45,482 nucleotides of DNA. Origin: Spirulina sp. CS-785/01 (GTDB lineage Bacteria > Cyanobacteriota > Cyanobacteriia > Cyanobacteriales > Spirulinaceae). The stretch covers positions 1-45,482 of the forward strand of contig NZ_JAQMSD010000055.1 of the NCBI RefSeq assembly GCF_028330525.1. Reading direction: 5' to 3'. Below the pieces are notes generated by a model that saw nothing but the letters and a program-made list of their open reading frames with translations, searched no databases and was not told where the DNA came from. Both the position numbers and the translations under genes were made by a program. This document shows positions 23,343-42,511 of this stretch, piece after piece; the stretch's first letter is position 1, and each line of letters starts with the position of its first letter.

Positions 23343-23506
23343 GGGCGGATGAACCAGTCTAGATACAGAGGACATAGGGAGAGGGGTTCATTGAGTCGCA
23401 ATTCCGGCTTATTGTACAGTATCATTGACTATTCCCCCTGAGCGCAATCAATTAGGCTATTCAGGTTTAGGAAAATTCTGAGTTCATAATTGGTTCTACG
23501 TTGTTT

Positions 23507-25222
23507 ATGAAAACTGTGTTCCCCCAACCTCAAACCTATTCTTCTGAAACTAGAAAAGTTGATCAACCATCCCCCTTAACTTTATCTCCATTAAAGTTTG
23601 TTGATTTATTCTCTGGAATTGGGGGATTTCGCTTAGGACTAGAACAAGCAGGATATCAATGTGTCTATTCTTGTGAAATTAATCCTGCTTGTCAAGAGGT
23701 CTATTATCAAAATTTTGGTGAATATCCCGATGGTGATATCACGAAAATTAATTTACACAACATACCAGATTTTGATGTTTTAACCGCAGGGTTTCCTTGT
23801 CAACCCTTTAGCATTTGTGGAAAGCGTCAAGGGTTTCAAGATACGCGGGGTACATTATTCTTTTATATTTGTGAACTGATTGAATATAAACAACCTAAAG
23901 TTGTTTTATTAGAAAATGTAAAATATTTATTACATCAAGATAAGGGTAGGACATTAGATGTTATTCTGTATTCTCTAGAAGATTTGGGGTATCAGGTTAG
24001 TTATAAACTCGTGAATGCTAAAGATTTTGGAGTTCCCCAAAATCGAGAAAGAGTTGTGATTATTGCGACAAAAGATAAAAAGTTTGATTTTGATAGATTG
24101 AACCCCCGTCACACTTACCACCCCTTGAAAAAATTTCTCTGCCAATCAGGAAATTTTGAATATTTAGACAGTAAAGATTATACTTTAATTGAAAACCCAA
24201 AACAGCAGAAATCTGGTTTAATTTTTGTGGGATATCGCAGTAATAAAAGTATTTGGAAAAAAGGAGTTAGACCGAATACTGAACATTTATCAAGGGTTCA
24301 TCGTCAACCTAACCGTATTTATTCGATTGATGGGTTACATCCCACCATTCCCTCTCAGGAAACATCAGGACGTTTTTTTATTTATATTCCTGAAGAAAAT
24401 GCGGTTCGCAAGTTAACCATTCAAGAATGTTATAAAATTATGGGATTTCCTGAAAATTTTAAAAGACATCCTAATCTAGGAGAATGTTATAAACAAGTAG
24501 GAAATTCTGTATGCGTCCCTATGGTATATGAATTAGGGATACAAATTCAACAACAAATCTTTACTAATAATTTAGAGAACCCTTTAGAAAAGCAACAGCA
24601 AGACTCCTCTCCTGTACAACTTCTCATTCCGGGATTAGTTATGAATCATAAAGAAAAATTGCTACAAATTTACAAGAATTCACAATCTATTGATAATCTT
24701 TCTTCTCAAATTCCTGATCAGTATATCAATTACCTTGAAATAATTGCCAATAATTGTTTTAAAAAAAAGGGAGTATATACCGTTTTAGTTACTCTCTTAG
24801 TTCATAAAACCCTTTATCCTGATCAAGATATCCGTTATCATCAAACACAGATGAAAGGGGGATTTTCTGGACGGACAATAGACACCCAGTATATCACTCC
24901 TACTCTGCGAGACTTAGGACTCCCTGCAATGGCTGAAAGTGGTTGGTTAACTCGCTCTTTAGAACAGCCTTATCCTTACACTTTAGATTATAATGGTAAC
25001 ATTAGTAGTTCCTCTGTTAAAGAAGCCTTTTTACATTTAATTGATTATACTCAAAGCAATGCTAAAAAAGCAGAAGCTATTTTAAAAATATTATTTTATA
25101 AGATTAGGAAAATTAAAGATACAAATATTGTTAAAATTACTAAAATTCAAAATCCCGAAAAATTAGCCATTACAACGATTACTCATTGTTTAGATCAGCA
25201 TTTTAATTTTAAAATGAATTAA
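23507..25222 (+). CDS. DNA cytosine-C5 methyltransferase with an unusual C-terminal extension
   Basis: Residues about 28-350 are a complete C5 methyltransferase. Motif I is VDLFSGIGGFRLGLE, motif IV GFPCQPFSICGKRQGF has catalytic Cys98, motif VI is ENV, motif VIII QNRERV, the target-recognition region lies at about 205-290, motif IX is LTIQECYKIMGFP and motif X QVGNSVCVP. Residues about 375-571 are extra. They contain KKKGVYTVLVTLLVHK and GFSGRTIDTQYITPTLRDLG, then LPAMAESGWLTRSLEQPYPY. That block resembles the N-terminal part of some type II restriction enzymes, but no nuclease motif follows before the stop. ATG 23507 is preferred to TTG 23501. The gene is clearly AT-rich compared with its neighbours, suggesting transfer. 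No separate restriction gene is adjacent. Confidence 0.85.
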   Translation: MKTVFPQPQTYSSETRKVDQPSPLTLSPLKFVDLFSGIGGFRLGLEQAGYQCVYSCEINPACQEVYYQNFGEYPDGDITKINLHNIPDFDVLTAGFPCQPFSICGKRQGFQDTRGTLFFYICELIEYKQPKVVLLENVKYLLHQDKGRTLDVILYSLEDLGYQVSYKLVNAKDFGVPQNRERVVIIATKDKKFDFDRLNPRHTYHPLKKFLCQSGNFEYLDSKDYTLIENPKQQKSGLIFVGYRSNKSIWKKGVRPNTEHLSRVHRQPNRIYSIDGLHPTIPSQETSGRFFIYIPEENAVRKLTIQECYKIMGFPENFKRHPNLGECYKQVGNSVCVPMVYELGIQIQQQIFTNNLENPLEKQQQDSSPVQLLIPGLVMNHKEKLLQIYKNSQSIDNLSSQIPDQYINYLEIIANNCFKKKGVYTVLVTLLVHKTLYPDQDIRYHQTQMKGGFSGRTIDTQYITPTLRDLGLPAMAESGWLTRSLEQPYPYTLDYNGNISSSSVKEAFLHLIDYTQSNAKKAEAILKILFYKIRKIKDTNIVKITKIQNPEKLAITTITHCLDQHFNFKMN

Positions 25223-26584: not shown

Positions 26585-29540
26585 GCTTCAATGGGGCTGC
26601 TCTCAAGGAGCAGATTTAAACCCCACTGGCAGGGATTATCACATTGGGCATGGCACTGATGCTTCAATGGGGCTGCTCTCAAGGAGCAGATTTAAACCCC
26701 AGCTTATCAATCCCTCCCCCCAGCAGGTCACGCTTCAATGGGGCTGCTCTCAAGGAGCAGATTTAAACAATATTCCGAGTATCCCCCTATCCAAGTGGTG
26801 TGGGCTTCAATGGGGCTGCTCTCAAGGAGCAGATTTAAACTTTTTGGGTTTTACTAAGCGAACGCAGGCCACCTCGCTTCAATGGGGCTGCTCTCAAGGA
26901 GCAGATTTAAACAATTAGCGGCACTACTCCAAGCGAGAAAGCGGTGGCTTCAATGGGGCTGCTCTCAAGGAGCAGATTTAAACGGGAGTACCAATAACTC
27001 TGATTTCCTCCGTGACCCGCTTCAATGGGGCTGCTCTCAAGGAGCAGATTTAAACTCTGCTGTGTTTTGTTGCCCGTCCAAAAGTTCCGATAAAGCTTCA
27101 ATGGGGCTGCTCTCAAGGAGCAGATTTAAACGGGAAAATGCTTTGGCAGGGATTAACGAAGTGGCTTACACGCTTCAATGGGGCTGCTCTCAAGGAGCAG
27201 ATTTAAACGAAGGATTAGAGGGATTTAAAGAAGGCCGAGATAAAGCTTCAATGGGGCTGCTCTCAAGGAGCAGATTTAAACGGTACGTCCCTCCGTTAGG
27301 GTGAACACTTGGGGCTAAGCTTCAATGGGGCTGCTCTCAAGGAGCAGATTTAAACAGCCAGGGAGGAGTGGAGTGGTTGGGGGGAGGCTAGCTTCAATGG
27401 GGCTGCTCTCAAGGAGCAGATTTAAACGTTGGCAACTTCGTGATCTCTCTAGCTATCCTCCCGATGCTTCAATGGGGCTGCTCTCAAGGAGCAGATTTAA
27501 ACGTAATTGATTATAAACATGGAAAACAAATTTGTTCTGCTTCAATGGGGCTGCTCTCAAGGAGCAGATTTAAACCATTCCAAGGTTTGCGTGAGGAGTT
27601 TGCTATCACAGTGCTTCAATGGGGCTGCTCTCAAGGAGCAGATTTAAACGGCATTTTTATGAGGCCGAATCAGGTATAGAGTTGCTTCAATGGGGCTGCT
27701 CTCAAGGAGCAGATTTAAACCTAAATTTTACACCAATTAATTCACATTCCGGTAGCTTCAATGGGGCTGCTCTCAAGGAGCAGATTTAAACCTTAATTTG
27801 TTCATCTGTGTAGGTGGGAGTAGCCGTGCTTCAATGGGGCTGCTCTCAAGGAGCAGATTTAAACCCCAGTCCTCAGAGTCGCCCCCCTCCCTAAGTAGGC
27901 TTCAATGGGGCTGCTCTCAAGGAGCAGATTTAAACAGTCTATCCATAACTGACGCAATAGGGGTAGTAGAGCTTCAATGGGGCTGCTCTCAAGGAGCAGA
28001 TTTAAACTCTGATCCCGATCGGAGAGGTAGTGGAGAAGGCTGCTTCAATGGGGCTGCTCTCAAGGAGCAGATTTAAACTTGCTGGGAAGGCGATCGCGGT
28101 ACTCAGCCCAATTTTTTAGGGGGCTTCAATGGGGCTGCTCTCAAGGAGCAGATTTAAACAAAAATATTATTATTAATGAAGAAATTTATAAATGCTTCAA
28201 TGGGGCTGCTCTCAAGGAGCAGATTTAAACTTGGCTTTTCTTTTTTCGCTCACCCTGATCTTCGCTTCAATGGGGCTGCTCTCAAGGAGCAGATTTAAAC
28301 AATGGATATAAATTCTGATGCCATATCAAAAATTTTCGGCTTCAATGGGGCTGCTCTCAAGGAGCAGATTTAAACTCGACAATATGGATGCCCTGAAATT
28401 GGGATTCTGCGCTTCAATGGGGCTGCTCTCAAGGAGCAGATTTAAACCCTTTAGCAAGGTTTCTTGATACTCAGTAAGTTTGCTTCAATGGGGCTGCTCT
28501 CAAGGAGCAGATTTAAACTATTAAACAGATTAGAAAAAAATCTGGATTTTTAGCTTCAATGGGGCTGCTCTCAAGGAGCAGATTTAAACCGTCTCGCCAG
28601 CTCCTCTCCCGCCCCTTTTCTCCGCTTCAATGGGGCTGCTCTCAAGGAGCAGATTTAAACTTTTTTGGGGATACCAGAGCGATCGCAATATATGCGGCTT
28701 CAATGGGGCTGCTCTCAAGGAGCAGATTTAAACCCCAGAAAAGTTTGGTCTTGGTTTTGTTCGGTGTGCTTCAATGGGGCTGCTCTCAAGGAGCAGATTT
28801 AAACACTCTGGAATAGGCACGGGGGCCCACCTTGATATCAGCTTCAATGGGGCTGCTCTCAAGGAGCAGATTTAAACATAAAAGACGGGCTGGGAGACCC
28901 CCTGACCCAGACCGGCTTCAATGGGGCTGCTCTCAAGGAGCAGATTTAAACTTTTTGTATCCGCAAATTTTCGTCTCCACGTCCCGAATATTCGCTTCAA
29001 TGGGGCTGCTCTCAAGGAGCAGATTTAAACCTTTCGTTGGCGGAACTAAGGCAACGGAGTGGATGGCTTCAATGGGGCTGCTCTCAAGGAGCAGATTTAA
29101 ACTCGGTTCGCGTGGAAGGCCAGTACAGCGTAGAATATTCGGGCTTCAATGGGGCTGCTCTCAAGGAGCAGATTTAAACCGCAGGGGCGGGGGCGATCGC
29201 CGTACCCCGACGTGCTTCAATGGGGCTGCTCTCAAGGAGCAGATTTAAACATTGCCTCATATGAGGCAATGTTAGACCCGGTGTTTCCGCTTCAATGGGG
29301 CTGCTCTCAAGGAGCAGATTTAAACGAAACACCCGACTGGTTCAATCTCCCACTTGAAGGCTTCAATGGGGCTGCTCTCAAGGAGCAGATTTAAACGTTG
29401 TTGCCAATTGATATAACTAGGGTTAAACGCGGCTTCAATGGGGCTGCTCTCAAGGAGCAGATTTAAACTCTACCTTTTGTTTGTTTACATTTTCTGGGTA
29501 TTAGCTTCAATGGGGCTGCTCTCAAGGAGCAGATTTAAAC
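26585..29540 (-). CRISPR. CRISPR array, 41 repeats of 37 nt, 40 spacers
   Basis: I read 41 identical 37-nt repeats, first at 26585-26621 and last at 29504-29540. On the plus strand the repeat begins GCTTCAATGGGG, has a stem CTGCTC / GAGCAG around TCAAG, and ends ATTTAAAC. Spacers are 33-44 nt, mostly 34-36. I infer transcription on the minus strand: that orientation gives the ATTGAAGC 3' end (crRNA 5' handle), matches the cas gene direction, and places a promoter-bearing leader at 29541-29797. The repeat at the trailer end (26585) is not degenerate. Spacers 21, 29 and 36 each contain a GCGATCGC octamer. Short in-frame ORFs through the array are repeat translations and not genes. Confidence 0.98.
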
Positions 29541-29797: not shown

Positions 29798-31333
29798 CTA
29801 TTCTGGACGAAACACCCCCAAGCCAAAATGCGCTCCATATCCCAGCGCGATCGGCCCCTTAACTTCCTCCTTAAACACCAGTTTAAACCCATACCCCTGC
29901 ATCGGCCCCCGTGACCCTTTCCCGTGGAGACGGTTTCGCCAAAACTTTGAACCATAAAACTGCTCTTTTACCCCAAACTTGCTCTGTTTAGGCAATAACT
30001 CCACCGACTGACAGTCGGGAAACCCCATCTCCCCTAAAAGCCGTTGTACCTCCTCCTCTCGCTGATAGCGGCCGTTTTTCTTGTGGGGATAGCGGGGAAA
30101 AATCAAGGGAGTGAGCGATCGCCAATAGTAACTTTTCTCCTGATCCTGAGATTTCTTTGCAGGGCAATAGGTTAAAGAAGAAATCGACGGTTGTTCCTCT
30201 AAACGCCCCACCGCTAATAAAACCAACTGATAGCCAGAAATGCCACCTCCGTAGATTTTGCGGACTTTCGCCAGGGCTTGCACCGCATCGGGGTTAAAGC
30301 CCTCTTTCGCCCACACTAAAATATGATCAATCTTGCCATCCCCATCGGCATCTTCGGGTAAGAAAAAGGCGTGTTGATGGCCTTGTAGGCGGTTTCCGTC
30401 TTGATCCTTTCCAGAAAAGACAGGCAATCCGTCGGAAATTTTGTTTAAGGTTTTATGGAGGCGATCGCCAATGGCAATAGCTTGGGTTAAAGGCGGCAAT
30501 ACCGAGGCTTTCACCGTCTCACTCACCAAGCGAAACCGAGCAAAATTAGGCAATAATAAAGCACCTTCAGAGGGTTTTTCGGGCTTCAGGGAAGTCTCCT
30601 GCACCCCATACCGCACCCAACGCCCCCCAGGGATACCATTCCACCCTTGAGCGTGTAAGTCGCCAATATCCAACTCTAACACCTCTACAATGTCCCTCGG
30701 AATCGTCCAAGACTTTTTCCCCCGCTTTTTCTTAGGTTTAGGCAGCATCCCTAAAGTATCCTGTAACTGGGTTAACCTGGCTTCATCAAGAGGGACTAAA
30801 ACATTGAGGGTGTCTAGAATATCTTGGGGGTTGTCTTCTAACTCCTCAGTCATGGGAAAAGCCGTGATCAACTCAGGTTTTTCATCCTTTACGGTGATTT
30901 CTACCCAAGATTCGGCCCTGCCTAAATAGGCGATCGCGCCACAAAGTTCTTCCAATAATCCCCTCTCCGGTTTCGCCAACGTTACATCCGGCCACCACAC
31001 CATCAGAGAGTCATCTTTATGAATCACATAAAAGGTATCTAAAACACGAGTTGTTTTATTCTTCCCTTCCCGACGAATGGGCATATAGTGACGGGTGTGA
31101 GCCTCCGTATAATTGGGTAAAGAATAATGGGGTAAATTGTTGCTTAATTGGCTCAGTAAACTTAATAATACCCTGCGGTCTGGCGTTTCCGGTAAGCGAT
31201 AATAAGCCGATACTAACGCCCGTAAAATGCGCCAAGGTGAGGGCGGCCATTCCACAACCCCTTCATTGACTTGATGAGTCCAAGGGGTAGCATGATAGCG
31301 GCCTGCGAGGAATTTACAGGAAAGAGTAATCAT
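29798..31333 (-). CDS. csb2: Type I-G (I-U) CRISPR-associated protein Csb2 (Cas5/Cas6-like fusion)
   Basis: The 511-residue RAMP protein opens MITLSCKFLAGRYHATPW followed by HQVNEGVVEWPPSPWRILRAL, the characteristic start of Csb2. In type I-G systems Csb2 is a Cas5-Cas6 fusion: it caps the crRNA 5' handle in the effector complex and is thought to process pre-crRNA. The central part has IPGGRWVRYGV, and the C-terminal RAMP half ends with ...GPIALGYGAHFGLGVF, a glycine-rich loop. It is the last gene of the cas operon, next to the leader. No cas6 is present elsewhere in the locus, consistent with the fusion doing that job. It is separated from csb1 by 242 bp that carry a dispersed repeat. Confidence 0.88.
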   Translation of the reverse strand: MITLSCKFLAGRYHATPWTHQVNEGVVEWPPSPWRILRALVSAYYRLPETPDRRVLLSLLSQLSNNLPHYSLPNYTEAHTRHYMPIRREGKNKTTRVLDTFYVIHKDDSLMVWWPDVTLAKPERGLLEELCGAIAYLGRAESWVEITVKDEKPELITAFPMTEELEDNPQDILDTLNVLVPLDEARLTQLQDTLGMLPKPKKKRGKKSWTIPRDIVEVLELDIGDLHAQGWNGIPGGRWVRYGVQETSLKPEKPSEGALLLPNFARFRLVSETVKASVLPPLTQAIAIGDRLHKTLNKISDGLPVFSGKDQDGNRLQGHQHAFFLPEDADGDGKIDHILVWAKEGFNPDAVQALAKVRKIYGGGISGYQLVLLAVGRLEEQPSISSLTYCPAKKSQDQEKSYYWRSLTPLIFPRYPHKKNGRYQREEEVQRLLGEMGFPDCQSVELLPKQSKFGVKEQFYGSKFWRNRLHGKGSRGPMQGYGFKLVFKEEVKGPIALGYGAHFGLGVFRPE

Positions 31334-31575: not shown

Positions 31576-34753
<3,178 letters not shown>

Positions 34754-34801: not shown

Positions 34802-37216
34802 TTAATATTTTGCTGAGGCTCGCCAGTCGGCGATACGGATGAGGGTTTCGAGGTAGGCTAGTTTGAAGGGGCCGTGGTGATGGAGAAGCGCGATCGCGCG
34901 ATTTCGCCAAGACTCCTTCCCCAATTTGATACACTGTAAAGTAAGCGTATGCTTTTGACTCGTAATGCCCTCCACTCGCTCAATCTCATCCCCATCCCAA
35001 ACCCCCAACGCATAGGGAATATCAGGTGGAGACGGTTTCGTTTCCCTTGGCCTCGCTTGCACCGTCATACGGACTTTTCCGTGATGACAGGCCACTAAAT
35101 AGGCCAATAAAAAGTCCTCTGGATACTCCTCCCAGGCCACCAAAGCACTAGCCCACTCATGGCGAAACCCGCGCCGCCAGTCTTCAGGGGGTTTCATTGC
35201 TTTTCGCTCTTGGCGAGTATGATCAGATTTAGCCCAGAGTCCATTTTCGCGCTCAGGGCGTTTTTGGGTTAATAAATCCTGAAACACCGGATGCGCTTTC
35301 CCCACATCATGGTAAAGTCCAGCTTGGATTAACCGTTGCACTAAGTTTTCATCCCAGTCATAGGCTTCTTGGAGAGAATTAAACTTGAATTCCTTTAACC
35401 CGTCTGGCACATCTTCAAGCAGCGTTTTCACTGCTGCTGCAACATCATTAGAATGCTGATGCAGAGAAACAAAACACCCCACCTGAGTTGTCGAGTTGTC
35501 ATCATCACTATCAGGACTTAAGCTCTCTTGAATTGCCAGATCATTCTTGTTATCTTGTTCAGGATTGGGCGTAATGGCTGCAAACTCTCGATCCTTGGGA
35601 TTCCCGGTAAACCCTAACTCTGAGGAATATCCCCCCGCTTTACAAGGAAACATCACAGCCAACCCCGGATAAAGTTTCTCCACCCTAACCCATTCTCCCT
35701 GACTACGCTCCCACCGATAAGCCGGGTTTCGCACACGCACTTTTTGCCAATATTTCGCCGCTTGGGGGAGGGAAACGCGACAGAATTCTGGAGGTTGTAA
35801 AGCGGTGGTGTCTTCCGGTGGCCCTTTCCCTTGCCACTCTCGCCACGCTATTAAGACATCCGTGTCTTGACTGTCTCGAATAAAGGGAGATACATCAATA
35901 TCATGCCCCATTAAATCCGTAGAAGTGTCGAATAGTTGCAAGATATCCGCTTTCCGAGGAATTAACCCCTCAATAGCCTCTGGCTCAACTGTGATCTTAG
36001 ACAGGGTAGCTGGACTAACATTATCAAGGGATTGTAGCTCTTTTCGCCCTGTCTCCATTGCCTCGACACTATAGTGCCAAGTAATATTTTTCTTATTTAA
36101 ATCGGCGTAATCAATCCAGTACACTTGAGTAATGCTGTCCTGTTCCCCCCGTCGGTTACAGCGTCCAAACCGTTGCACCAGAGACGGCCAAGGAGCTAAC
36201 TCCGTAAACAAAACCGCCGCCGAGATATCCACCCCCGCTTCAACGGCTTGTGTCGCCACTACAATGCCCGTGAAGGTGTCTAAATCCCCTTGTAGGTTAC
36301 TTCTATCCTCGGCGCGAAATCGGGAGTGTATGAGGCGTTTTTCGGTGTCTGAGGGAAGGTGTTGATAAATAGCCTGCGATCGCGCAACCTGATTACAGAT
36401 CACCAAAGTTAACTGCCCCCCTTGATGCGCCGCCAAAATTTCCGGCACAATCTTCTTAGCATAGGCCGTCTCTTTCCCCCCATCCCAAACCGTTGTCGCC
36501 CGTTGTAAAGGCTTATTAGCATAAAACCGTTGTCGAAGCCCCTCCGCCTGTAAATCCGCCTCAGATAAGCCCAGAAACGCCCCTAAATCCGGTTTATAGT
36601 CCACCGTCTCCACCTGCTCACGGTGTAACGTTGCACTCATCCAGAGAGATTTAACGTTCCCATACCCGTTAAACTGTTCTCGAAACCCTTGTAACTGTGC
36701 CGTGGTGCGTAACCCATTCCCCATCAACTGAGTTTCATCCATCACCCAGAGACAATCATTATTCAGCAAAGCAAAATCAATGGGCCACCGATGGCGATTC
36801 ATACTATAGCCCCGATTTAACGCCCGACTCAACAATTGATCCTGCGTCCCCACCACAATGCAAGGATACTCTGGCAAAGACACCCAATCTTTCTCAATCT
36901 TGCCCCCCATCAACTGATAGAGTGTGATAGGTGGGTCAATCTGACTCAGCCAAGTTTGAATATTGTTTGTCGTTTGGTCAACCAGAGAACGCATCGGTAA
37001 ACAATACGCCAATCTTAGGGGAGTCTGCCTCCGGATAGTCTCATCAGGATGATAAAACCGCCGCCACACCCAAGCAAGCACCACTGCCGCAGTTTTCCCG
37101 GCCCCCGTCGCTGCATCGAGAAACAAGGGAAAGTCTGCACTTTCTGCTAACTGCACTTGATAGGGAAAAGGTTGATATCCCGTGACGTGACGAAACCACG
37201 CTGTAAAATTCTCCAT
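34802..37216 (-). CDS. cas3: Type I-G CRISPR-associated helicase-nuclease Cas3 with C-terminal HD domain
   Basis: The 804-residue protein starts ENFTAWFRHVTGYQPFPYQ, then has an SF2 helicase: Walker A AATGAGKTAA (35-44), motif II DETQ (160-163), motif III SAT (194-196), and motif VI QRFGRCNRRGE. The HD nuclease follows at the C-terminus: HD at 636-637 (YHDVGKAHPVF), HE at 686-687, HHG at 711-713 and the last metal-binding Asp near 797 (RIADWRAS). Helicase-then-HD order is typical of type I-G Cas3, whereas most Cas3 proteins have HD first. All catalytic motifs appear intact. It is the first gene of the operon, with 417 bp of non-coding DNA upstream holding the crRNA-like cassette. Confidence 0.9.
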   Translation of the reverse strand: MENFTAWFRHVTGYQPFPYQVQLAESADFPLFLDAATGAGKTAAVVLAWVWRRFYHPDETIRRQTPLRLAYCLPMRSLVDQTTNNIQTWLSQIDPPITLYQLMGGKIEKDWVSLPEYPCIVVGTQDQLLSRALNRGYSMNRHRWPIDFALLNNDCLWVMDETQLMGNGLRTTAQLQGFREQFNGYGNVKSLWMSATLHREQVETVDYKPDLGAFLGLSEADLQAEGLRQRFYANKPLQRATTVWDGGKETAYAKKIVPEILAAHQGGQLTLVICNQVARSQAIYQHLPSDTEKRLIHSRFRAEDRSNLQGDLDTFTGIVVATQAVEAGVDISAAVLFTELAPWPSLVQRFGRCNRRGEQDSITQVYWIDYADLNKKNITWHYSVEAMETGRKELQSLDNVSPATLSKITVEPEAIEGLIPRKADILQLFDTSTDLMGHDIDVSPFIRDSQDTDVLIAWREWQGKGPPEDTTALQPPEFCRVSLPQAAKYWQKVRVRNPAYRWERSQGEWVRVEKLYPGLAVMFPCKAGGYSSELGFTGNPKDREFAAITPNPEQDNKNDLAIQESLSPDSDDDNSTTQVGCFVSLHQHSNDVAAAVKTLLEDVPDGLKEFKFNSLQEAYDWDENLVQRLIQAGLYHDVGKAHPVFQDLLTQKRPERENGLWAKSDHTRQERKAMKPPEDWRRGFRHEWASALVAWEEYPEDFLLAYLVACHHGKVRMTVQARPRETKPSPPDIPYALGVWDGDEIERVEGITSQKHTLTLQCIKLGKESWRNRAIALLHHHGPFKLAYLETLIRIADWRASAKY

Positions 37217-37291: not shown

Positions 37292-37358
37292 AAAAAAGCT
37301 AAAGGGTTGACTATTTAGCTAATGTTTGCATAATAACACACCTTTTCATAAAATTTAA
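37292..37358 (-). ncRNA. Candidate small RNA (CreT-like?) or cas3 leader with mini-ORF and terminator-like hairpin
   Basis: From the promoter at 37365-37394 transcription would start near 37358. Nine nt later an ATG (37349) opens a 12-codon frame, MKRCVIMQTLAK, ending at TAG (37311). Its third codon is AGG, a rare arginine codon in many bacteria. The stem AGCTAAA (37320-37314) / TTTAGCT (37303-37297) follows with TTTTT, resembling a weak intrinsic terminator. A short RNA with a near-leaderless mini-ORF and a hairpin recalls CreT toxins of CreTA modules. Alternatively this is only the cas3 5' UTR. I see no biochemical clue to decide. Confidence 0.3.
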
Positions 37359-37364
37359 CTTTTT

Positions 37365-37394
37365 CTTATAAACTTTTTTTTAGGCAGACGACAA
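37365..37394 (-). promoter_or_regulatory. Candidate promoter facing cas3, containing the pseudo-spacer target
   Basis: On the minus strand TTGTCG (37394-37389) and TATAAG (37370-37365) are spaced by 18 nt. They match TTGACA at 4/6 and TATAAT at 5/6. The sequence between them, TGCCTAAAAAAAAGTTTA (37386-37369), is the target of the pseudo-spacer upstream. A protein complex bound here would block RNA polymerase. The 3 nt preceding the match are 5'-GTC, the candidate PAM. Confidence 0.5.
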
Positions 37395-37414
37395 GAACGA
37401 GACTCAGCAAAAAT

Positions 37415-37454
37415 AATGGGGCCGCTTGAGATAATATCCCAAGCGGATTAAATT
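37415..37454 (-). repeat. Degenerate CRISPR repeat 2 (pseudo-repeat)
   Basis: On the plus strand AATGGGGC matches the array repeat. It is followed by a stem CCGCTTG / CAAGCGG where the array repeat has CTGCTC / GAGCAG, and then ATTAAAT where the array has ATTTAAAC. The loop is 11 nt rather than 5. The stem is preserved with changed sequence and is followed on the minus strand by a T-rich stretch. Confidence 0.65.
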
Positions 37455-37486
37455 CCGACTACTCCCAGTAAACTCTTTTTGAGGCA

Positions 37487-37529
37487 ACTTCAATGGGGCC
37501 ACGCTAGACAAAGCAGGAATTAAGGGAAC
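37487..37529 (-). repeat. Degenerate CRISPR repeat 1 (pseudo-repeat)
   Basis: On the minus strand it ends GCCCCATTGAAGT; 12 of these nt (GCCCCATTGAAG) are identical to the array repeat's 3' end, which becomes the crRNA 5' handle. The interior differs and is 6 nt longer (43 versus 37), with a weaker stem (TGCT / AGCG). The 5' end keeps GTT. Confidence 0.75.
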
Positions 37530-37555
37530 TATTGAGCTACTGGTAGTCAAGCCCT

Positions 37556-37561
37556 ATTATA
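37556..37561 (-). promoter_or_regulatory. Candidate -10 box of the crRNA-like RNA
   Basis: A perfect TATAAT on the minus strand lies 27 nt before pseudo-repeat 1, predicting a start near 37549. The -35 is weak: nothing close to TTGACA is found 16-18 nt upstream. A TTGACC is present but only 9 nt upstream of the box. Confidence 0.45.
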
Positions 37562-39154: not shown

Positions 39155-40783
39155 TTACCCCGCGATCGCCTCAATTGTATTCTGAGGTGTAGTTTCTTCT
39201 TTGGCCCCTTCCTCAGCCAAATATTGCGCCAACTGTTGCTCAATATTATTCTTCACTAGCCCCCGATACTCAATAAAATGCTCCCCATGGGCGCACACTG
39301 TCAAATAACTCAAAATCACCTCTCGGTGGTGAATAAACATCTGTAAGAGATACCACCAGAACGTAAAACGGGTTTTCCGCTTCACTCCTTGTCGCCATAA
39401 AAGAGTCCCAAACGCCCGAACGAGTTGTAAATCAATCGTTTTTCCGGGGTATTTCTTCTCACACTTCGCCTGTTTGGCTTTCTCCTTCCGCTTCTGATAA
39501 CAAGGAGCAGTCCCTAAAATGCGATAATGTTGATAGGTTCGGTCTAAGAAATTTTGCGGATCGTACAATTCCCAAAACCCCTTAATATACTCGCGGGTAA
39601 TTTCCTCAATGGGACGAGTGGGGACAAAGTTCATTAAACTGGTTTGATTAATATTGGCTTCCCCTTTGCGTAAGCGGCCTTCCTTCTCTAACCGATGCCA
39701 TAACCCGGTATCCGGTAACGCTTGCAGCATACTGAAAAAGGCTGTGGGAATAGTGGTTTGCTTGACAAACTCCACAATCCGTTCCCCTGCGCCGGATTTT
39801 TCCCCATCAAAGCCAATAATAAACCCAGCCATCACCCGCAAGCCAGAGCGAGTAATTTTTAACACCGACTCCGAGAGGGGATCACGAGTATTTTGATATT
39901 TCTTCGTCACCGATAAACTGGACTCATCGGGGGTTTCAATGCCCAAAAAGACCGCATTAAAATTACAATCGGTCATTAAGTCCATTAACTCTTGATCGTT
40001 GGCTAAATCCACCGATGCTTCTGTGGAGAAGGTGAAAGGATAGCCTCGTTCTTCTACCCAAGGGGTCAATTCCCGCAGTAAAATCTTCACATTGCGCTTA
40101 TTGCCAATAAAGTTATCATCCACCATAAAGACACTGCTATGCCAGCCTAATTCGTAGAGTCGTTCTAACTCTGCGATGAGTTGTTGCGGAGACTTGGTGC
40201 GGGGTTTGCGACCATAGAGGACGATAATATCGCAAAATTCGCACTGGAAGGGACACCCCCGTGAAAACTGTACCGCCATATCGGAATAAGCGTCCATGTC
40301 CAGTAAGTCAAAGCGGGGGATGGGGGTTTGGGTAACATCGGGTTTTTCTAAAGCGCGGAATTTGCCGGATTTTTCTCCGTTTTCTAGGGCTTCGACGAAC
40401 ATAGGGATCGTAATTTCCCCTTCGTCTAAAATGAGATAATCGGCCCCGGCTGCTTCGACTTCTTGGGGGAAGGCGGTGGCGTAGGGCCCGCCGACTCCTA
40501 CGGGAATTTCCCGTTTTTTGGCTTCTTGGATGAGATAGGCAAAGTCTTCCCGATGGACAATCATCCCGGAAATAATCACTAATTCTGCCCAATTCCAGTC
40601 CTCTTCAGAGATGGTGGTAACATTGCGATCGCGCAATCGAAATTCCCACTCTTGCGGAAATAAGGCCGCCACGGTGATCAACCCTAATGGGGGGAGTAAG
40701 GCTTTGCGGCCCACTAATTCAAGGGTTTTTTCAAAAGACCAGAAACTTTTGGGGAAACGGGGATATAGCAGTAAAGTACGCAT
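39155..40783 (-). CDS. B12-binding-domain radical SAM protein (DUF4070 type), paralogue A
   Basis: The 542-residue protein has an N-terminal B12-binding-like Rossmann domain (about 1-140) in which the usual DxHxxG base-ligand motif is absent (RDRNVTT instead). A radical SAM barrel follows, with CxxxCxxC at Cys177, Cys181 and Cys184 (SRGCPFQCEFCDII). The C-terminal region has the DUF4070 pattern FWELYDPQNFLDRTYQHYRI. Such proteins are common in cyanobacteria, and most have no assigned substrate; HpnP-type hopanoid methylases share the architecture but I cannot claim that function. A close paralogue lies 99 bp upstream on the same strand, a tandem duplication. The ATG is supported by conservation with the paralogue. 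Confidence 0.8.
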   Translation of the reverse strand: MRTLLLYPRFPKSFWSFEKTLELVGRKALLPPLGLITVAALFPQEWEFRLRDRNVTTISEEDWNWAELVIISGMIVHREDFAYLIQEAKKREIPVGVGGPYATAFPQEVEAAGADYLILDEGEITIPMFVEALENGEKSGKFRALEKPDVTQTPIPRFDLLDMDAYSDMAVQFSRGCPFQCEFCDIIVLYGRKPRTKSPQQLIAELERLYELGWHSSVFMVDDNFIGNKRNVKILLRELTPWVEERGYPFTFSTEASVDLANDQELMDLMTDCNFNAVFLGIETPDESSLSVTKKYQNTRDPLSESVLKITRSGLRVMAGFIIGFDGEKSGAGERIVEFVKQTTIPTAFFSMLQALPDTGLWHRLEKEGRLRKGEANINQTSLMNFVPTRPIEEITREYIKGFWELYDPQNFLDRTYQHYRILGTAPCYQKRKEKAKQAKCEKKYPGKTIDLQLVRAFGTLLWRQGVKRKTRFTFWWYLLQMFIHHREVILSYLTVCAHGEHFIEYRGLVKNNIEQQLAQYLAEEGAKEETTPQNTIEAIAG

Positions 40784-40849
40784 GGGATTGAATTAATAAT
40801 GAATAATTTATTATTGAGCGAATTTTAGAACATTTGAAAGTTTGGACTA

Positions 40850-40871
40850 GGGGCAATATTGGGATTGCCCC
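40850..40871. repeat. Hairpin between the radical SAM paralogues
   Basis: GGGGCAAT and ATTGCCCC form an 8-bp perfect stem around ATTGGG. No T-run follows on the minus strand, so it may be a processing or attenuating hairpin. A similar GGGGCAATTC stem occurs near 9.04 kb. Confidence 0.5.
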
Positions 40872-40882
40872 AACCTTGGTGT

Positions 40883-42511
40883 TTAACTCGCTAACGAGTC
40901 CACCAGTTCCGCTTCAGAACTATCTTCTTTTGCCGCTTCTTCGGCTAAATATTGGGCTAACTGCTGCTCAATTTTATTCTTCACTAATTCCCGATATTCT
41001 AGGAAATGTTCCGCTTGGGCGCAAACCCCTAAATAACTAGGAATTCCTCGACGGTTATGGATGAACATTTGCAACAAATACCACCAGAAGCTAAAGCGGG
41101 TTTTCCGCAGGATACCTTGTCGCCAGCAAATAATCCCTAATGCCCGGATCATCCGCCAATCAATGGGTTTCCCCGCCCGTTTTTTCCCATACTTGGCTTG
41201 TTTTGCCTTCTCTTGCCGTTTCTTATGACAAGGGGCAGTCCCTAAAATGCGATAATGGCGATAGGTGCGGTCTAAGAAGTTTTGCGGGTCGTACAATTCC
41301 CAAAAGCTGTTGATATACTCCTGGGTAATTTCTTCAATGGGACGGGTGGGGACAAAGTTCATTAAACTGGTTTGATTAATATTGGCTTCCCCTTTGCGTA
41401 ACCGGCCTTCTTTCTCTAACCGATGCCATAAGGCCGTATCCGGTAACGCTTGTAGCATACTAAAGATGGCGGTAGGAATACTGGTTTTATCCACAAATTC
41501 AACAATCCGTTTTCCAGCGCCGGATTTTTCCCCATCAAAGCCAATAATAAACCCGGCCATCACCCGTATTCCAGAACGAATAATTTTGTTAACAGATTCG
41601 GAGAGGGGATCGCGGGTATTTTGATATTTTTTAGTCACTTCTAAACTGGACTCATCGGGGGTTTCAATGCCCAAGAAAACTGCCCCAAAGTTACAATCGG
41701 TCATTAAGTCCATTAATTCTTGATCATTGGCCAAGTCCACGGATGCTTCTGTGGAGAAGGTGAAGGGATAACCTCGTTCCTCGACCCAAGGGGTCAATTC
41801 CCGCAGTAAAATCTTTACATTGCGCTTATTGCCAATAAAATTATCATCCACCATAAAGATACTGCGTCGCCAGCCTAATTCGTAGAGGCGTTCTAACTCT
41901 GCAATGATTTGTTGCGGGGTTTTGGTGCGGGGTTTGCGGCCATAGAGGACAATAATATCGCAGAATTCACATTGGAACGGACAACCTCTAGAAAATTGGA
42001 TAGCCATTTCCGAGTAAGCCTCCATATCGAGGAGATCGAAGCGGGGGATGGGGGTTTCGGTAACGTCGGGTTTTTCTAAAGCGCGGAATTTCCCAGATTT
42101 TTCCCCGTTTTCTACGGCTTCGACGAACATGGGGATGGTGATTTCTCCTTCGTCTAAAATGAGATAATCGGCCCCGGCTGCTTCGACTTCTTGGGCGAAG
42201 GAGGTGGCGTAGGGGCCGCCGACTCCTACCGGGATACCTCGTTGGTTAGATTCTTTAATAAGATAAGCAAAGTCTTCCCGGTGGACGATCATTCCGGAGA
42301 TAATGACTAACTCGGCCCAATTCCAGTCATCTTCGCTGAGGGTGGTAACATTGCGATCTACGAGGCGAAATTCCCAGTCTTGGGGGAGTAAGGCCGCGAC
42401 GGTGATCAACCCTAGGGGGGGTAACATGGCTTTGCGGCCCACTAATTCGAGGGTTTTTTCAAACGACCAGAAACTTTGGGGAAATCGGGGATAAAGCAGT
42501 AAGGTACGCAT
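40883..42511 (-). CDS. B12-binding-domain radical SAM protein (DUF4070 type), paralogue B
   Basis: This 542-residue protein is the same length as paralogue A and highly similar along its whole length. Both have SRGCPFQCEFCDIIVLYGRK and NQTSLMNFVPTRPIEEIT. Differences cluster in the last 120 residues (for example GIICWRQGILRKTRFS here versus GTLLWRQGVKRKTRFT). The B12 domain again lacks DxHxxG (VDRNVTT). The cluster cysteines are all present, so both copies should be active. The C-terminal divergence may reflect different substrates. It is transcribed before paralogue A, probably in one operon. Confidence 0.8.
   Translation of the reverse strand: MRTLLLYPRFPQSFWSFEKTLELVGRKAMLPPLGLITVAALLPQDWEFRLVDRNVTTLSEDDWNWAELVIISGMIVHREDFAYLIKESNQRGIPVGVGGPYATSFAQEVEAAGADYLILDEGEITIPMFVEAVENGEKSGKFRALEKPDVTETPIPRFDLLDMEAYSEMAIQFSRGCPFQCEFCDIIVLYGRKPRTKTPQQIIAELERLYELGWRRSIFMVDDNFIGNKRNVKILLRELTPWVEERGYPFTFSTEASVDLANDQELMDLMTDCNFGAVFLGIETPDESSLEVTKKYQNTRDPLSESVNKIIRSGIRVMAGFIIGFDGEKSGAGKRIVEFVDKTSIPTAIFSMLQALPDTALWHRLEKEGRLRKGEANINQTSLMNFVPTRPIEEITQEYINSFWELYDPQNFLDRTYRHYRILGTAPCHKKRQEKAKQAKYGKKRAGKPIDWRMIRALGIICWRQGILRKTRFSFWWYLLQMFIHNRRGIPSYLGVCAQAEHFLEYRELVKNKIEQQLAQYLAEEAAKEDSSEAELVDSLAS

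Follow-up and report, generated by a model that had tools for sequence, protein, structure and literature searches.

A candidate CreR-type guide cassette in front of cas3 in a type I-G CRISPR-Cas locus of Spirulina sp. CS-785/01

CreR has been reported for CRISPR-Cas types I-B, I-E, and V-A (PMC13131331). As described in the accessible text of two papers, it is a gene for a crRNA-like RNA that lies beside the cas operon, is partly complementary to the cas promoter, and requires no coupled toxin (PMC13131331, PMC12737573). Other crRNA-like RNAs repress toxins, as follows. In the CreTA modules of types I-B and I-F, CreA consists of two degenerate repeats round a pseudo-spacer, which pairs at positions 1–5 and 7–11 with a PAM-flanked target, and the repressed gene is a toxin RNA, CreT, that needs a Shine-Dalgarno sequence, tandem rare codons, and a stem-loop (PMC8501985, accessible text). 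In CrePA, the repressed toxin is a protein (PMC12737573). Phage RNA anti-CRISPRs, or Racr, are likewise repeat-like RNAs encoded outside an array (PMC10651486, accessible text).

Among the type I subtypes, I-G has been described as the one least understood (PMC9638904). In the accessible part of that paper, the I-G effector is described as having a Cas5-Cas6 fusion and no Cas11; the cut made by Csb2 falls 4 nt beyond the hairpin base on the 3′ side and yields an 8-nt handle; Cas7 flips out bases in a 5+1 pattern, that is, at positions 6 and 12; and PAM recognition is given as an open question. A literature search found no CreR or CreTA for type I-G or I-U; the subscription literature was thinly covered in it and CreR was reached through reviews, so that an I-G prediction there is possible. 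In the accessible text of PMC9458426, “type I-G” occurs once, as a reference title.

The window, that is, the whole stretch of 45,482 nucleotides analysed here, makes up contig 33 of its 5.4-Mb host genome, which shares a family with G006; the G006 locus belongs to the filamentous cyanobacterium ESFC-1. The minus strand of the window carries a type I-G operon in the order cas3-csx17-csb1-csb2, followed by a 41-repeat array, and in a profile search all four cas genes score above the NCBIfam curated cut-offs (Table 1). A sequence-only reading of this DNA had proposed a crRNA-like cassette in a Csx17-containing type I-G locus, 7.9 kb from the array and on the opposite side of the cas operon; the family scores of csx17, cas3g, csb1, and csb2 and the position of the array bear out both statements. 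A search of plasmid sequences for Csx17 gave no match. Elsewhere in the window are two similar tandem B12-binding/radical-SAM genes of 542 aa (39155–42511; the family matches are those of the first one) and an ORF of 573 aa at 23501–25222 that, from its motifs, we take to resemble a cytosine-specific DNA methyltransferase.

Table 1. Coordinates of the type I-G genes, the array, and the elements of the cassette in the window.
Feature	Position	Strand	Remarks
cas3g	34802–37216	-	TIGR02621, 741 bits, cut-off 400
csx17 / cas8g	32534–34753	-	TIGR04113, 598 bits, cut-off 150
csb1 / cas7g	31576–32556	-	TIGR02570, 95 bits, cut-off 38
csb2 (Cas5-Cas6 fusion)	29798–31333	-	TIGR02165, 184 bits, cut-off 45
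CRISPR array, 41 repeats GTTTAAATCTGCTCCTTGAGAGCAGCCCCATTGAAGC	26585–29540	-	
TATAAT, possible -10 box of the guide gene	37556–37561	-	by eye; without a good -35
Degenerate repeat 1	37487–37523	-	13/16 matches to the array repeat 3′ end
Pseudo-spacer TGCCTCAAAAAGAGTTTA, 31 nt	37456–37486	-	
Degenerate repeat 2	37410–37455	-	hairpin, CCCC, decayed handle; RNA fold
Pseudo-spacer target	37369–37389	-	PAM-like GTC 37389–37387 and matching stretch TGCCTAAAAAAAAGTTTA 37386–37369
Possible promoter under the target	37365–37394	-	TTGTCG 37394–37389, 18 nt, TATAAG 37370–37365; by eye
Rival element	37297–37346	-	SD-like AAAAGGTG 37346–37339, 6-codon ORF 37331–37311; by eye

Upstream of cas3, at 37523–37410 on the minus strand, two degenerate repeats enclose a 31-nt pseudo-spacer. 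Repeat 1 retains GCCCC followed by ATTGAAG (GCCCCATTGAAG, 37499–37488), has its 8-nt handle, ATTGAAGT, at 37494–37487, and has no clear stem. Repeat 2 forms an 11-bp hairpin of altered sequence, CCGCTTGGGAT(ATT)ATCTCAAGCGG (37446–37422), followed by CCCC (37421–37418) and then by ATT, the start of a decayed handle, ATTATTTT (37417–37410). The array repeat and repeat 2 both fit the Csb2 rule of a hairpin plus 4 nt. Of the two repeats of CreA, the first has diverged further (PMC9458426, accessible text), whereas in the window repeat 1 has the better handle and repeat 2 keeps the hairpin. The parts named by the sequence-only reading are all found: a TATAAT box on the minus strand, a degenerate repeat with 12 nt of the array repeat’s 3′ end, a spacer-sized segment between the repeats (from 37486, and 31 nt long by our analysis), and a further degenerate repeat whose stem is altered. 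A sigma-70 and terminator scan of the window listed nothing on the minus strand.

When the cassette DNA of the window was searched for in 13 genomes from the family of the host, the host genome alone had it. The motif CAGCCCCATTGAAG, with at most 2 mismatches, is matched at 106 places in the genome, of which 41 are array repeats and 65 lie outside the array, versus 39 for the backwards pattern. Since such matches are common across the genome, a repeat fragment alone is weak evidence; it is the combination of the fragment with repeat 2 and the target that puts the cassette above chance. An ordinary CRISPR array unit was considered and rejected, as the repeats are degenerate and the spacer matches the region upstream of the locus’s own cas3.

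The target of the pseudo-spacer lies in front of cas3, 100 nt downstream of the pseudo-spacer start. Positions 1–5, 7–11, and 13–18 match, so that among the first 18 only 6 and 12 differ, and these two mismatches coincide with the bases flipped out by type I-G Cas7. When positions 6 and 12 are omitted, every one of the 15 positions scored among the first 17 matches, a fit that none of 3000 shuffled spacers equals in the region. In the 5.4-Mb genome, GTCTGCCTNAAAAANAGTTTA has a single place without mismatch, the target upstream of cas3; three further places are listed, at 3 mismatches each, among them the guide itself. The TTGTCG/TATAAG pair on which the target sits is a possible promoter; the TATAAG form was missed by the sigma-70 scan because the scan demands T at the last position.

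The GTC or GTT that flanks the targets is unlike the TTN given for I-G (PMC9638904, accessible part). No match was obtained for the array spacers of the window and of L026 among phages and plasmids, or for seven spacers (five from the window, two from L022) searched as patterns in viral contigs. It follows that GTC/GTT as a PAM is read from the cassette targets only. A comparison of 742 spacers with the collected loci by BLAST was set aside as uninformative, the matches listed including short ones and duplicate copies of the same loci.

The cassette is like CreR in being a degenerate-repeat, crRNA-like gene outside the array and near the cas genes, and its pseudo-spacer is partly complementary to DNA before its own cas operon, with a putative PAM-like flank and a predicted promoter. 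It differs in that the subtype is I-G, with a Cas5-Cas6 fusion and no Cas11 in the effector, in that pairing comes in three blocks and reaches about position 17, and in that repression is here putative. With CreA it has in common the two degenerate repeats round a pseudo-spacer, the pairing at 1–5 and 7–11, and the PAM-flanked target. The Racr are solitary viral repeats, in contrast to the two repeats found here, which flank a guide targeting the host’s own cas operon.

Searches with csx17 and cas3g gave 32 loci including the window. L059 lacks the cas3 N-terminus, and the remaining 31 loci were analysed; among them are three whose cas3 matches fall below the family cut-off (L061, L065, and L066) and three with less than 600 nt of upstream sequence (L050, L055, and L056). 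L021 is the same locus as L017 and is excluded from all counts. Degenerate cassettes are found upstream of cas3 in 15 of the 31 loci, and 16 have none. Repeat 2 consists of a hairpin, 4 nt, and a decayed handle in 12 of the 15 cassettes by script and in the other three by eye. Fourteen of the 31 loci have both a cassette and a GTC/GTT-preceded target, which is 82–137 nt from the guide start: the window, L017, L020, L022, L026, L028, L051, L052, L054, L056, L057, L058, L062, and L063. In L053 a cassette is present and no target was found. No cassette was found in two loci fetched later, L089 and L088, the latter being the sole locus examined from outside the class of the window.

The pseudo-spacers of the 14 loci are mostly unrelated to one another, and each fits its own GTC/GTT-flanked target, two of them weakly. 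In L051 the fit is 10/15, which shuffles equal in nearly half of the cases (p 0.45; 0.016 among GTC/GTT sites), and a better-scoring, GAA-flanked site lies 236 nt upstream of the guide; in L054 the fit is 11/15 (p 0.11 in shuffles, or 0.005 among GTC/GTT sites). L052 and L054, which belong to one genus, have an identical 37-nt repeat 1 and different guides, each with its own target. The guide of L020 is on the opposite strand, and L017 and L020 have two tandem target copies, each preceded by GTC.

Guide and target change together. When 10 guides were paired with 10 regions, from 10 loci with one clade-B representative, with L053 (no target) included and L052 absent, the own-pair sum was 125; permutations had a mean of 95.2 (sd 4.3, maximum 120), and none of 100,000 reached 125. 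Swapping guides and targets thus destroys the fit. A fixed scan, the limits of which were set only after the first loci had been inspected, was positive in 13 of the 31 loci; among its controls, one reversed region in 31 was positive, that of L051, and there was no hit in the 31 cas3 interiors or in the 310 shuffles. The scan finds 13 rather than 14 pairs because L051, with 10/15, falls below the cut-off of 11. The rule of mismatches at 6 and 12, GTC/GTT, and a downstream target was noted before L048–L066 were examined, and 8 of the 18 loci with a readable cas3 start in this set fit it (L051 and L054 weakly).

Counted across all 14 pairs, the matches at positions 1 to 5 are 14, 14, 11, 14, and 14; at 7 to 11 they are 14, 13, 10, 12, and 14; and at 13 to 17 they are 12, 12, 10, 13, and 10. 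Position 6 has 0 matches, position 12 has 1, and position 18 has 5. Such a profile reproduces the 5+1 pattern described for the I-G effector (PMC9638904, accessible part). The counts outside 6 and 12 are partly selected, because the scoring omitted these two positions after inspection; the scarcity of matches at 6 and 12 is free of that selection. Since 1 match in 28 is below the quarter expected under free drift, a mismatch at positions 6 and 12 may be favoured; the counts here are per pair, and five of the loci form one clade.

The sequence-only reading had expected the pseudo-repeats to track the array repeat. An array is known for 13 of the 15 cassette loci; in these, repeat 1 scores 183/208 against its own array, and 1 of 50,000 permutations is as good; in the window’s group of nine, the score is 126/144 and 1504 of 50,000 permutations are as good. 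Tracking therefore holds over the 13 loci and is only weak within the group of nine. In L062 and L063, repeat 1 does not track the array.

These counts bear on the view that the cassette is a decayed mini-array, or a repeat decoy, without a regulatory target, its match upstream of cas3 being due to chance. The lost stem of repeat 1 in the window, the L053 cassette without a target, and the frequency of the handle fragment alone in the genome would all fit such decay. The co-change of guide and target over loci (0/100,000), the register at positions 6 and 12, the GTC/GTT before the targets, and the single exact site in the genome speak against it, and we give this view very little credence.

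We propose instead that the cassette encodes a CreR-type, crRNA-like guide, which would direct the I-G effector (Csb1/Csb2/Csx17) to repress its own cas operon, and we think this probable. The CreA/CreR-type character put forward from the sequence alone is strengthened by the partial match that lies upstream of cas3, PAM-flanked and in Cascade register, by the same design in 13 relatives, and by a repeat 2 that keeps the Csb2 cut geometry. What is seen directly is the anatomy of the cassette, the match with its register, the fact that the genome has no second exact site, and the way guide and target change together across 14 loci; the cassette is a real feature and most likely the I-G version of CreR.

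A guard of the CreTA or CrePA type is the alternative that turns on what lies between the target and cas3. Here the guide would repress a toxin gene in that interval, and loss of the effector would harm the cell. The guide logic is shared with CrePA, and the creTA of H. hubeiense lies directly upstream of its cas operon (PMC8501985, accessible text). In the window, the SD-like AAAAGGTG and the 6-codon ORF, together with a weak AGCTAAA/TTTAGCT stem before a T-run (37320–37297, minus strand, by eye), could be read as such an element. However, the toxin RNA of CreTA has tandem rare codons and the mini-ORF of the window has none: its codons CAA, ACA, TTA, GCT, and AAA range in frequency from 8.6 to 53 per 1000 across 11 ORFs of the window, and the AGG of a longer frame is rare but single. 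Nor does the window have an ORF of at least 30 aa between the target and cas3. Among the relatives, orphan ORFs of at least 51 aa lie in this interval in 8 of the 14 loci (L017, L020, L022, L051, L052, L054, L062, and L063), which again recalls CrePA and favours a guard; seven of them, one per locus with that of L062 omitted, were compared with Pfam and NCBIfam and gave no match. Those of L051, L052, and L062 are one family, the L062 copy being broken by an in-frame stop, and those of L017 and L063 are weakly alike. The L052 protein fell into five clusters, its own included, in a database search by a method that reaches close relatives only.

Clade B bears on the order of these readings. In its five guide-bearing loci, the target is 22–47 nt from the cas3 start, and therefore only cas3 follows it, without room for an extra gene and unlike CreTA. 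For this reason the CreR-type guide is ranked first and the guard gene, which we regard as unlikely, is kept as an alternative. It is tempting to imagine one guide with two jobs in type I-G, which would hold down a promoter driving both cas3 and an exchangeable small head gene, the guard, represented by the mini-ORF in the window and by the orphan ORFs of eight relatives; loss or poisoning of the effector would release both the Cas proteins and the guard gene, and guide, target, and small gene would be swapped between genomes as one cartridge. We consider this idea doubtful.

It might also be supposed that the guide acts on the operon otherwise, for instance as an activator sitting ahead of the promoter or through base-pairing with cas mRNA. 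In L017, L022, and L052 a TTGACA box is seen by eye 41–70 nt downstream of the target start, past the 34–36-nt protospacer. This placement favours such action, and simple promoter blocking fits less well in these three loci because the TTGACA lies beyond the target. On the other side, the site in the window is on a possible promoter and the clade-B site comes after a promoter-like block. By eye, neither this block nor the target is recognisable in the guide-less clade-B relatives L025, L027, and L089. As for mRNA, all 14 chosen targets are preceded by GTC/GTT and have a guide-like strand sense, and binding to double-stranded DNA is therefore favoured over it. Taken together, we hold activation or mRNA pairing to be highly improbable.

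For the CreR-type guide, the steps may be as follows. The guide would be transcribed from the TATAAT box, and Csb2 would trim the transcript to ATTGAAGT, 31 nt, and a 3′ hairpin. The processed guide would be loaded by Csb1/Csb2/Csx17, and the effector would bind in front of cas3, over the promoter in the window and in the early transcribed region in the five clade-B relatives. A block of transcription would be the simplest effect common to the loci. Pairing that ends near position 17 would probably spare the locus from cleavage by Cas3. By analogy with CreR (PMC12737573, accessible text), array crRNAs or anti-CRISPRs may draw the effector away and so lift the repression of cas.

If this is true, RNA-guided self-control extends to a further effector architecture, that of type I-G. 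The 14 natural guide-target pairs would be an evolutionary footprint of the I-G effector at work in cells, and its features, namely the handle boundary, the 5+1 register, the pairing of about 17 nt, and the GTC/GTT triplet, can each be tested. It also suggests that I-G tools without the cassette may miss a native brake.

A few minor observations concern the flanks of the cassettes. In L017, L020, L022, and L062, strong hairpins (8–12 bp, by eye, without a T-run) lie between the target and the first ORF. In the RNA predicted for the window (37548–37408, minus strand), pairing is possible between the 5′ leader and the 3′ half of the pseudo-spacer, with a z of -2.1 for the fold and a p of 0.19 for the pairing. 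Long-range pairing of this half with the flanks was tested in the 15 cassettes and rejected as a general feature: it is strong in L022 and L054, has p 0.02 in L057, and is unremarkable in the others. In L022 (11 nt) and L054 (14 nt), the 3′ half of the pseudo-spacer is perfectly inverted-complementary to a stretch between repeat 2 and the target, which was found in 0 of 300 shuffles each. Tandem repeat 3′ ends precede the pseudo-spacer in L053 (at -128 and -108 from cas3, 20 nt apart) and in L026 (at -175 and -159, 16 nt apart). In L049, the 25-nt repeat-like sequence TGGCCTGATTGAAGCGACGCTGTCA occurs twice in inverted orientation, at about -668 (+) and -499 (-) from cas3, and the pair is perhaps the two ends of a small mobile element.
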